A DNA stretch of 64,000 bases, taken from Gemmatimonadota bacterium. Lineage in GTDB: Bacteria; Gemmatimonadota; Gemmatimonadetes; Gemmatimonadales; Gemmatimonadaceae. Below, in pieces: positions 55,335-58,715 of the stretch. The stretch lies in the NCBI GenBank assembly GCA_003155795.1, contig PMEM01000060.1, forward strand, positions 1-64,000, given 5' to 3'. How positions within the stretch are numbered: position 1 is the first letter of the stretch; every line of letters begins with the position of its first letter. A program made the position numbers and the translations under genes. The notes beneath the pieces are model-generated. The model had not been told where the DNA came from. It saw only the letters and a list, made by a program, of their open reading frames with translations, and did not search any database.

Positions 55335-55922
55335 ATGAATGTCCAGTCTCATATGACCAGCCGTACTTCAATGCGCCGGGATCCCCCACGACGTCCGGTA
55401 AAGCAACGCATCATCTGGGCGCCAGTTGCGTCTGCTCTGGTGCTCGTGGGTCCTGCCGTTCTTGCGGTAGTCACGGGGCAGGTGTTTCTATTTCCGAGCC
55501 TCGGTCCTACCGCGGTAATGCTGGCGCACGAGCCTCAGCACCACAGTTCGCGTCCGTACGCAGTGCTGGTGTCGCATGCCGTGGGATTCCTCGCCGCATC
55601 TGTCAGCGTCGCGATTTTTGGCGTTGCCTTCGCACCTTCGGTGTTTGAGACCCATACTGTAAGTTTGGCGCGTGCTTGCGCCGCAGTGCTGGCCCTGGCG
55701 TTGGCAGTGTTCCTGGAAGTCGTGCTGCACGCCGAGCACCCACCGGCGGCCGCCACAACGTTGCTGGTTGCGCTGGGGTCATTCCAGCCGACACTGTACA
55801 GCGCGTTCCTCATCATGAGTGGCGTCGTCGTTGTGCTCGCTATCGGGGAACCACTGCGACGGGTTCGGCTGAAGCTGGAAGCGCGACTGGACGATCCGGA
55901 CGCGAGTAGTCAGATCGTGTAA
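55335..55922 (+). CDS. HPP family integral membrane protein
   Basis: A 195-residue protein with about four membrane segments. The HPP signature is clear: FLFPSLGPTAVMLAHEP and the conserved HAEHPPAAATTLLVALG. A charged C-terminal tail (VRLKLEARLDDPDASSQ) follows. HPP proteins are membrane proteins with a proposed role in anion, including nitrite, transport in some organisms; here the substrate is unknown. The start is uncertain because there is no clear ribosome site. It lies seven bases before the sigma factor. Confidence 0.85.
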   Translation: MNVQSHMTSRTSMRRDPPRRPVKQRIIWAPVASALVLVGPAVLAVVTGQVFLFPSLGPTAVMLAHEPQHHSSRPYAVLVSHAVGFLAASVSVAIFGVAFAPSVFETHTVSLARACAAVLALALAVFLEVVLHAEHPPAAATTLLVALGSFQPTLYSAFLIMSGVVVVLAIGEPLRRVRLKLEARLDDPDASSQIV

Positions 55923-55929
55923 TATTCGG

Positions 55930-56514
55930 GTGTCGGCCGGCATTGATAAGATGAAAATGCCGAGACCTCACGCCGTCCTCACACTTCAATCGAGCGAGCC
56001 GCTGACGCAGGACAAAGTGCTCGGGCGCACGATCGCTGGTGATCCATCTGGAATAGCCGAGTTATACGAACGGCACGCGGCTTCGTTGTTCCGGACCGCG
56101 TACCGGATGCTTGGCTCGCGCGCCGATGCGGAAGACGTTGTCCACGATCTCTTCGTCGGACTCCCCGAAGCGCTCCGGCGGTATGAAGACCGTGGTCGGC
56201 TGGATCAGTGGCTCACGCGAATAATCATACGTCTGAGCCTCATGCATTTGCGCAACGAACGCCGTCGCCGCTCCACGCCGCTTATGGATATGCCGCAACT
56301 GGCTGGCACGGAGAGATCGGATGCTCGGCTTGAGCTGACGGAACTGGAGCAGGCCGTGATGGCCCTCCCAACCGGGCTTCGCGCCGTGTTCGTTCTCCGG
56401 CAGGTAGAAGGCTACTCATATGAAGAAATCGCAGCACTGCTCGATATCAGCGTCGGCGCGTCCCGGGTTCGCCTCACGCGCGCAATAGAAAGGCTTCGTC
56501 GCACACTTCTATGA
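55930..56514 (+). CDS. ECF-type RNA polymerase sigma factor
   Basis: A 194-residue sigma factor with GTG start, or ATG 55,951 as an alternative. Region 2 is seen in AELYERHAASLFRTAYRMLGSRADAEDVVHDLFVGL, with WLTRIIIRLSLMHLRNERRR following. Region 4 is MALPTGLRAVFVLRQVEGYSYEEIAALLDISVGASRVRLTRAIERLR, with a helix-turn-helix. It would direct transcription of a small regulon when released by the anti-sigma protein encoded next. The overlap of its stop with the next start (ATGA) shows tight coupling of the pair. Confidence 0.94.
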   Translation: MSAGIDKMKMPRPHAVLTLQSSEPLTQDKVLGRTIAGDPSGIAELYERHAASLFRTAYRMLGSRADAEDVVHDLFVGLPEALRRYEDRGRLDQWLTRIIIRLSLMHLRNERRRRSTPLMDMPQLAGTERSDARLELTELEQAVMALPTGLRAVFVLRQVEGYSYEEIAALLDISVGASRVRLTRAIERLRRTLL

Positions 56515-58715
56515 GCTTCATCGACAAGGTAACCGTCATGCACTATTTCTCACGCCATCCTGCGCACGCTGAATTGAGCGACTTCCTTGCCGGGAGCGAT
56601 CCAGGCGCCCGCTCTCGCATCGCGTCGCACCTCGAGCACTGTCAGTCGTGCCGCGACGTTCTACAGTTGCTGCGCGGTGCGAGTGCTTCACAATGGAACG
56701 CGCCTGGCACGGAACCGTCACCGGAACTGCTCGCGCGCATTCTCGAGAGTCGCGCATCCGACGCGCGAGTAATTCTGCCGTCCGACACTCAAATCGCAGG
56801 TTCTAGGAGTACTCCCAACCGGCTATCACTGATTGCTGCAGCGGCAGTGATACTTGCCGTGATCGGCGGCGTGCTGGTGACCCGGACCGCGAGCGATGTG
56901 GAGGCTGGTGCGACGAGTGGGACGCTTGTGTTGAATCCTGCAATGCCTCGACCAGGCCAGACTGTCAGTGTGACATACCGTGCGGCCGCAATGTTGGCCA
57001 ACCAGCCGACCCTCGTGCTTCGGGCGCGTATGCGCGACACAGGCAGTGAATCATACAACGCTGGGTTCCCGACAGTCCGCGCAGCCATGCTGCAGCGCGG
57101 TGCAGACGGAGACTTCACCGGGCATTTCGTAATTCCGGCCAATATTGTGTATGCCGCGCTCGCCGTCGCAGATACAAGTGCTCAAAGCGTCGACGACAAT
57201 GCCGGTCGCGACTGGGAAATACTTGTCTCCGATTCTACAGGGAAGCCGCTGTTCACGGCGTTGGATCAACGCGCCAACGACATGATGGGCCGAAACTGGG
57301 AAGAGGGGCTCGCAACCGCGCATCGCATGGTGGCGTTGTACCCGCGCGATCTGAGGGCGTGGAGTTGGCTTCGCGCATTCAACCGATGGCTCGGCAAGGT
57401 TGGCGATGACAGCATACGAGTTCGTGACCGTGCGCAGCTTGCCAAGTTCGATTCCATGTTCACAAACGGCGTCGCGTCTGATGCTGACATCGGAAGGATG
57501 GCTTGGTTCGCAGACGGGATCGACTCCAGCATTGCCGCGCACTGGCGCGCCCGGCTGATGCAGCAGGCTCCGCGCAACTCGTTTGCGGTACAGTGGCGGT
57601 TGATCGCGATCCTCGACACCCTGCATCAGCGAAATGACACGGCTACTGTGCTCCGTCAGATGGATGCGCTGTGGGATTCTGCGCCGCTGGACCCGAAGGC
57701 GCAGATAGCGACATACGCTACCGGGATGGCAATGGATGCGGCCGACACAACTCTCATCAAACTCTGGACAACGCGACAGGCGCTTGGCGGGGGCGACAAA
57801 CGCGATTTCGCACGATGGGTCGCGACGCAATTCACAAAGATACCCGCACTTCGCGCTGAGGGCATTAAGCTGGTACGCAATGAGATGGACAGTCTTGCCA
57901 TACTTCACCCGTCAGAGCAGGCACTGGACGAAACGATTGCCGAACAGCGGGCGCGTCACAATGTCAGCCGCCGCAATCTGCTCGCAACGCTGGGACAGGC
58001 ACTAGTTGCAAGCGGAGATTACGCGGGTGCGCGCCAGGTACTCGACGAGGCCGTATCGAAAGGCTGGAATCTGGAAGTCTTTCGCGCCGTGCGAACCGCC
58101 AGTCTTGCGGCCGGTGATACAGCGCATGCACTGACGATGGCTGCGCGAATAAGCGTCGATCCGCGGACTTCACCGACATTCACCGACTCACTGCGCCCGG
58201 TCGCAGAACGCGTCCTCGGCGCTGCAGGATGGAACGCGGAACTGGCCACAGCGCGAAAGGAATTCGTCAAGCGCATGCTTGAAAGTTCAACTCCACGATC
58301 GATACGGGGTGATCCGCGATTGCGCGACCTTGATGGTCAGACGACCAAACTCAGCGCGCTTGCGCAGGGGAAGGTCACTATCGTCGCATTCTGGTCGCGA
58401 TTCTGTGGCCCGGCGATCGAGGATCTGCCTGTCATGAACGCCGTCGCGACGCGCCTGGCGAAATCTGGTGTCCGGGTGGTGAGTGTCGTTGACGAGGCAA
58501 ACTCATCTGCCGCGCTGAAACAGTTCCTGCGAGACAGGAAGGTAACAATGCCGACGTATCTTGACAGCTGGCACGAAGGCAGCCGCGCGTTCAATCAGTG
58601 GGGCACGCCGGACTACTATGTAATCGACGCTGATGGAAGAATACGGTTCGCGGGAACCAATTCCGCAGAGACGGTGCTCGCCCGCGCCGAGGCTTTGCGA
58701 ATGTCCGAGAACTGA
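56511..58715 (+). CDS. Anti-sigma factor fused to an extracytoplasmic helical region and a thioredoxin-like domain with a CGPA site
   Basis: A 734-residue fusion. Residues 10-50 are a zinc-binding anti-sigma domain with the H-x3-C-x2-C motif H40-LEH-C44-QS-C47. A single membrane helix is at about 105-125 (LSLIAAAAVILAVIGGVLV). From about 130 there is a beta-rich segment, then a long alpha region like TPR repeats (about 240-580). The final 140 residues look like TlpA/thioredoxin: VTIVAFWSRFCGPAIEDLPVM, GVRVVSVVDEAN and WGTPDYYVIDADGRIRFAGT. The active site is C632-G-P-A635, so the resolving cysteine of CGPC is replaced by alanine. Ligand and cysteine positions are seen; sensing of thiol or oxidative state by the outer domain is inference. 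Confidence 0.85.
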   Translation: MSFIDKVTVMHYFSRHPAHAELSDFLAGSDPGARSRIASHLEHCQSCRDVLQLLRGASASQWNAPGTEPSPELLARILESRASDARVILPSDTQIAGSRSTPNRLSLIAAAAVILAVIGGVLVTRTASDVEAGATSGTLVLNPAMPRPGQTVSVTYRAAAMLANQPTLVLRARMRDTGSESYNAGFPTVRAAMLQRGADGDFTGHFVIPANIVYAALAVADTSAQSVDDNAGRDWEILVSDSTGKPLFTALDQRANDMMGRNWEEGLATAHRMVALYPRDLRAWSWLRAFNRWLGKVGDDSIRVRDRAQLAKFDSMFTNGVASDADIGRMAWFADGIDSSIAAHWRARLMQQAPRNSFAVQWRLIAILDTLHQRNDTATVLRQMDALWDSAPLDPKAQIATYATGMAMDAADTTLIKLWTTRQALGGGDKRDFARWVATQFTKIPALRAEGIKLVRNEMDSLAILHPSEQALDETIAEQRARHNVSRRNLLATLGQALVASGDYAGARQVLDEAVSKGWNLEVFRAVRTASLAAGDTAHALTMAARISVDPRTSPTFTDSLRPVAERVLGAAGWNAELATARKEFVKRMLESSTPRSIRGDPRLRDLDGQTTKLSALAQGKVTIVAFWSRFCGPAIEDLPVMNAVATRLAKSGVRVVSVVDEANSSAALKQFLRDRKVTMPTYLDSWHEGSRAFNQWGTPDYYVIDADGRIRFAGTNSAETVLARAEALRMSEN

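Follow-up and report, generated by a model that had tools for sequence, protein, structure and literature searches.

Several described bacterial systems combine an anti-sigma factor of the HHCC zinc type with a co-encoded ECF sigma factor, among them RslA/SigL of Mycobacterium tuberculosis, ChrR/RpoE of Rhodobacter sphaeroides and RsiW/SigW of Bacillus subtilis, and the gene pair described here is built likewise. RslA and RsiW are membrane proteins, as is the anti-sigma factor of our locus, and ChrR is a soluble protein with a C-terminal domain of the cupin type. To our knowledge, RslA, ChrR and RsiW do not carry an outer module composed of Ig-like, TPR-type and thioredoxin-fold parts. The zinc-binding motif of the class I anti-sigma factors (ASDI/ZAS) is H/C-X24/25-H-X3-C-X2-C (PMC6432622). 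These proteins bear many different C-terminal domains and are abundant in the Gemmatimonadetes (about 79% of the ECFs there) (PMC7406223). RslA is a redox-sensitive zinc anti-sigma factor (PMC2877774), and in the RsiV/SigV system of B. subtilis the outer domain of the membrane anti-sigma factor is a receptor for lysozyme, the binding of which leads to site-1 cleavage (PMC5014341). The thiol-disulfide oxidoreductase TlpA, engineered into a one-cysteine state by the C110S substitution, has been captured in crystals in mixed disulfides with ScoI and with CoxB (PDB titles; PMC6696091).

The locus studied here is located on the forward strand of a 64,000-nucleotide stretch of a Gemmatimonadota contig (PMEM01000060.1), which we refer to as the window. 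Both genes of the pair were confirmed: an ECF sigma factor gene (55951..56514) and the gene of a 734 aa transmembrane anti-sigma factor whose outer part comprises an Ig-like, a TPR-type and a one-cysteine TlpA-like domain (56511..58715). They share the ATGA overlap noted in the preliminary description, the anti-sigma ATG being at 56511 and the sigma stop codon at 56512–56514. The sigma protein is short, has sigma regions 2 and 4 and no region 3, as is characteristic of the ECF (group 4) factors, and matches Sigma70_r2 (6e-17, residues 45–113) and Sigma70_r4_2 (2e-16, residues 138–189) in Pfam as well as TIGR02937 (2e-27, above the cut-off), its PDB matches being ECF sigma structures such as SigE, SigW and RpoE. 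The open reading frame listing places its start at GTG 55930, but this codon is part of a conserved promoter, where it separates the two boxes, and translation therefore probably begins at ATG 55951 or 55957. With the start at ATG 55951, the sigma mRNA would perhaps be leaderless.

The cytoplasmic zinc domain of the anti-sigma protein (56511..56760) contains the sequence HLEHCQSC, which comprises H40, C44 and C47 and bears out the H40-x3-C44-x2-C47 motif proposed earlier; the fourth ligand, H16, had been missed. All four residues are invariant in 19 relatives and are the HHCC ligands known from zinc anti-sigma factors, in agreement with the ASDI/ZAS motif, with X23 between the histidines in the window protein and X24 in L004. 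The profile of this N-terminal domain built from the 19 relatives shows the homology to ASDI/ZAS proteins when compared with the PDB, the matches being ChrR (6.9e-7), RslA (8.3e-7) and RsiW (6.1e-6). The window sequence alone scores below the Pfam zf-HC2 and NCBIfam cut-offs, and zf-HC2 is matched by 27 of the 67 family members (best 5.6e-9). The HHCC zinc domain is predicted to bind the co-encoded ECF sigma factor and so keep it inactive. The Hx3Cx2C motif is absent in seven ECF-coupled relatives that possess the outer module (L006, L007, L010, L011, L015, L028 and L049). The domain is followed by the one membrane helix that had been expected, at residues 105–124 (56823..56882) according to both hydropathy and the AlphaFold2 (AF2) model, and such a single helix is compatible with regulated intramembrane proteolysis.

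The AF2 model of the anti-sigma protein, built on 67 relatives (mean pLDDT 89), shows helices at residues 19–82, the transmembrane helix, beta strands at 138–238, helices at 248–591 and an alpha/beta part at 593–734. The large outer helical region of the preliminary description thus corresponds to residues 248–591, but an Ig-like beta sandwich that was not foreseen comes before it (residues 138–238, 56922..57224), modelled with pLDDT of about 97 in most blocks and of 90 when folded by itself. For this Ig-like domain the structural search gave generic Ig-fold matches only, with E above 1e-3, and no specific relative. The helical region is a TPR-type array (57252..58283) with a weak match to TPR_14 (4e-5) at residues 489–520. 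Residues 593–734 (58287..58712) indeed form a thioredoxin fold of the ResA/TlpA kind with high confidence: AhpC-TSA is matched at residues 604–713 (2.5e-15), the superposition on ResA (2f9s) gives a VIA Z of 18.3 with 2.0 Å over 136 residues, and that on TlpA a Z of 15.6. ResA and TlpA are among the best Foldseek matches, which include single-cysteine ResA mutants and the mixed disulfides of TlpA C110S with ScoI and CoxB. The TlpA-type insertion is present, and the place of the CxxC dithiol active site is taken by CGPA; the domain is filed here as a fold relative of TlpA/ResA and not as an oxidoreductase. We infer that it is located outside the inner membrane.

The scan of 395 genomes of the phylum, subsequently extended by family scans, yielded many full-length relatives, most of which have an ECF gene ahead of them that often overlaps by 4 bases. 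Homologues with the identical gene order are present in several families of the phylum, where the fusion thus recurs beside an ECF gene, which indicates that the arrangement is more than chance. A broad genome scan, which reaches close relatives only, returned Gemmatimonadota alone, and the two named relatives are Gemmatimonadetes MAGs. Over 40 pairs the distances between the ECF proteins were correlated with those of the anti-sigma zinc domain (Mantel r 0.73, p 0.001), of the outer region (Mantel r 0.83, p 0.001) and of the thioredoxin domain (r 0.71, p 0.001). This correlated divergence supports, short of proof, the predicted sigma/anti-sigma pairing, with shared phylogeny contributing to it. 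The segment made up of the HPP, ECF and anti-sigma genes (window 55335–58715) is absent from three congeners (L127, L128 and L129), in which argB, argD, an acetyltransferase gene, ABC-F and tgt follow in unchanged order. In these congeners the methyltransferase and ABC-F genes that flank the segment adjoin each other, or the surrounding order is kept, the methyltransferase gene not being found in one of the three. The segment is thus accessory within the genus, as a result of gain, or of loss elsewhere.

A tree built on the outer region, with the thioredoxin part left out, divides the family into three groups. The first comprises the ECF-coupled proteins retaining C632, the cysteine of the CGPA motif. 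The second is a clade whose members stand alone, begin with a signal peptide or a lipoprotein-like N terminus and often have CGPC, and the third, a sister group, consists of 18 ECF-coupled proteins with no cysteine at position 632. The number of stand-alone proteins outside the main clade is approximate since a few of the rows with no ECF gene detected lie at contig ends or have doubtful starts (L040, L091). The solo state is associated with CxxC, but this association depends on the phylogeny (sign test p 1) and is not taken here as correlated evolution. A split of the domains among close homologues had been named as evidence against sensing; the close relatives keep the fusion, whereas in the distant clade the secreted or lipoprotein-like outer part occurs alone.

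In class-level relatives, the stand-alone form has as its neighbours M56 (BlaR1-type) peptidases, BlaI-type repressors, further TlpA proteins and proteins resembling six-bladed beta-propellers. Forms of this kind include L114:6487-10305, L115:8626-12200, L116, L118, L119 and L120, which have a signal peptide or a lipobox-like N terminus and often CGPC. Both signalling systems can share a locus, as is seen for an ECF gene (L119:15717-16394) that belongs to a cluster also encoding M56, BlaI, HEAT-repeat and TlpA proteins. In the window, neither an M56 nor a BlaI gene adjoins the anti-sigma gene. The occurrence of the outer module with two transmembrane signalling systems, ECF/anti-sigma and BlaI/M56, fits a role of this module as a sensor.

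The sigma gene of the window is preceded by a predicted autoregulatory promoter of the ECF type (55918..55944, forward strand; TGTAATATT-N11-CGGCATT), which overlaps the stop codon of the HPP gene. Its two-box motif, TGTAA(C/G)NTT-N11-CGGCATT, recurs upstream of the ECF genes of the family. In the form of a regular expression it was found in 15 of the 30 upstream regions from the C632 side of the tree vs. 0 of 30 reverse strands, shuffled sequences contained no more than 1 match to a similar pattern, and the top-ranked sites of a weight matrix scan over 870 kb of loci precede ECF genes of the family. The position of the motif upstream of the ECF genes implies, as far as sequence can tell, that the sigma factor has a recognisable promoter of its own and is autoregulated. 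The preliminary description had suggested promoter motifs common to this operon and other genes; the motif exists, but precedes only the ECF genes themselves. The search of the own genome for further members of the regulon yielded little beyond the ECF genes' own promoters, and that of 12 genomes, with up to 2 mismatches allowed, little beyond the sites preceding the family's ECF genes. The extra matches that were inspected lay within genes or had no convincing downstream gene, and in several of the 12 genomes the counts were close to control values. Autoregulation is thus the sole predicted target, and other targets may have weaker sites. In one genome (G249) a third ECF/anti-sigma pair is present at a contig edge (L150), the promoter of which is almost identical, spacer included. 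Several members of the clade without C632 (L051, L053, L056, L057, L061 and L063, and also L054 and L064) have sites of the TGTAAGGTT-N11-AGGCGTT type several hundred bases upstream of their ECF genes, suggesting that in this clade an extra gene may head the operon and that the promoter specificity may have shifted.

The anti-sigma protein of the window has three cysteines, C44, C47 and C632, the last of which lies within FWSRFCGPAIEDLP and opens the CGPA motif (C632 to A635, 58404..58415) that had been recognised in the TlpA-like domain. It is the only cysteine outside the membrane. In L010, L011, L015 and L049 it is the sole cysteine of the whole protein, and an intramolecular partner is thus impossible in all these proteins. 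C632 is present in 47 of 47 rows of its side of the tree that have the site (28 ECF-coupled, 19 without ECF). On the tree of 47 rows (46 with the site), which has a total length of 35.6 substitutions per site, it underwent 0 changes vs. a median of 18 for the outer columns, just 5 of 570 of which are without change. The neighbouring positions 633, 634 and 635 changed 14, 15 and 7 times, and among the 28 ECF-coupled relatives position 635 is occupied by S (14), A (10), C (3) or F (1). The first cysteine, where present, is thus under strong selection, and the resolving cysteine is not needed. Conservation of CGPA had been proposed as a check; C632 is conserved on its side of the tree, but CGPA proved to be one among several one-cysteine forms, including CGPS, CAPS, CPPS and others. 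The proteins retaining C632 also keep W628 and T699-P700, the cis-Pro motif. In the sister clade of 18 ECF-coupled fused proteins the cysteine, W628 and the cis-proline motif have all been lost, so the conservation of C632 among homologues, on which the sensing idea had been made to depend, holds for the clade of the window protein but not for the family as a whole. Thiol chemistry is thus no requirement of the architecture as such, the fusion persisting in the sister clade. In three ECF-coupled relatives (L016, L085 and L086) a CxxC motif has been kept or regained (CRDC, CRSC, CLTC); the idea that no ECF-coupled form retains a second cysteine was ruled out by a better alignment that revealed these motifs. 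In a stand-alone relative (L044:1409-3238) a deletion removes the thioredoxin active-site stretch.

We favour, with a probability of roughly 0.45, the reading that the locus encodes a sigma/anti-sigma switch with a sensor in the outer compartment that works through one thiol, C632. In this switch the cytoplasmic HHCC zinc domain would hold the co-encoded ECF sigma factor inactive, one helix would cross the inner membrane, and the Ig, TPR and TlpA-like module outside would be the receiver. As an attacking cysteine without a resolving one, C632 would form a long-lived mixed disulfide or an oxidised thiol adduct, its partner being a protein or a small thiol of the outer compartment which the TPR and Ig parts may help to select or present. 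Occupation of C632 would alter the outer module and bring about the release of the sigma factor, most likely via stepwise proteolysis of the anti-sigma factor as with other membrane anti-sigma factors, and the freed sigma factor would transcribe its own operon from the promoter described above, which would create a positive feedback loop. Redox sensing via C632 is plausible, and the capture of the engineered one-cysteine TlpA C110S in mixed disulfides supports it. Several observations count against it: the switch can work without C632, as the 18 ECF-coupled proteins of the sister clade indicate, three ECF-coupled relatives have CxxC, and no partner thiol protein is encoded adjoining the anti-sigma gene within the window. 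A bolder version, which we consider doubtful, is that the TlpA domain serves as bait: clients whose cysteine is oxidised or free would be trapped on C632 in a stable mixed disulfide, and their covalent capture would, across the membrane, release the ECF sigma factor. If true, it would mean that a sensing principle copying the biochemist's trap mutant operates in a family spread over the phylum.

The conservation of C632 would equally follow from non-redox uses, and it is quite possible that the outer Ig/TPR/TlpA module is a platform binding a protein, a peptide or an envelope ligand. The thioredoxin fold would then be an enzyme that has degenerated and survives as a binding surface, with C632 serving for packing or binding. 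TPR and Ig are typical binding folds, the 18 fused relatives without C632 retain the architecture, and the other invariant outer residues (R171, D228, W345 and D685) are scattered over the Ig, TPR and Trx parts. Fixation of a cysteine over 35.6 substitutions per site while its three neighbours vary freely would, however, be unusual for a packing residue, and the clade that lost C632 also lost W628 and the cis-proline, which is what an active site functioning as one unit, where it exists, would lead one to expect. The retention of the first cysteine and the cis-proline, together with the frequency of the full CGPC in stand-alone relatives (10 of 19 rows), is also what would be seen if the TlpA-like domain performed thiol chemistry, for instance as an isomerase or holdase for oxidised clients, and the anti-sigma part reported its workload; such a dual function is unlikely, as the window protein has neither a resolving nor any other outer cysteine and its catalytic cycle would need an outside thiol. 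That redox state is sensed at the cytoplasmic HHCC site, in the manner of RslA or RsrA, with the outer region as a mere anchor or scaffold, appears very improbable: the full ligand set is invariant in the 19 relatives and the RslA-like motif is redox sensitive (PMC2877774), but seven ECF-coupled relatives with the outer module are without Hx3Cx2C, the outer region is conserved as strongly as the remainder, and the zinc motif is often structural in membrane anti-sigma factors (PMC7406223).

No account of a thioredoxin or TlpA domain joined to an anti-sigma factor was found in the open-access papers searched, a scope outside which the main ECF reclassification (10.1093/nar/gkaa1229) falls, and the family appears to represent a mode of sensing beyond the inner membrane that has yet to be described. 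The sensing of thiol and protein-folding state in this compartment is poorly known beyond a few model systems. From this point of view the family offers a testable case, with one cysteine in one domain that half of the family keeps absolutely and the other half has lost under the same domain order, and the promoter motif gives the means to look for such regulons. ECF/anti-sigma and BlaI/M56 signalling, moreover, are unrelated transmembrane systems that this family connects through a shared outer module.

Among the known systems, RsiV as a receptor, RslA with its redox-sensitive zinc domain and TlpA with its mixed disulfides come nearest in function. RsiV resembles the window protein in being a membrane anti-sigma factor with an outer domain that acts as a receptor, a role that is predicted in our case; the outer domains are unrelated, and thiol chemistry is absent in RsiV. 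The sensor protease systems of the BlaR1/BlaI type are related to our locus through the class-level relatives in which the stand-alone outer module is encoded beside M56 and BlaI genes, whereas in the window this module is fused to the anti-sigma factor. Finally, the membrane-anchored thiol-disulfide oxidoreductases TlpA of Bradyrhizobium and ResA and StoA of Bacillus have the fold and the active-site region in common with the window domain, and the single-cysteine mutants ResA C77A and TlpA C110S mimic the natural CGPA and CGPS motifs. TlpA, ResA and StoA, however, are CxxC reductases, whereas the domain described here is naturally devoid of the resolving cysteine and is fused to an anti-sigma factor.
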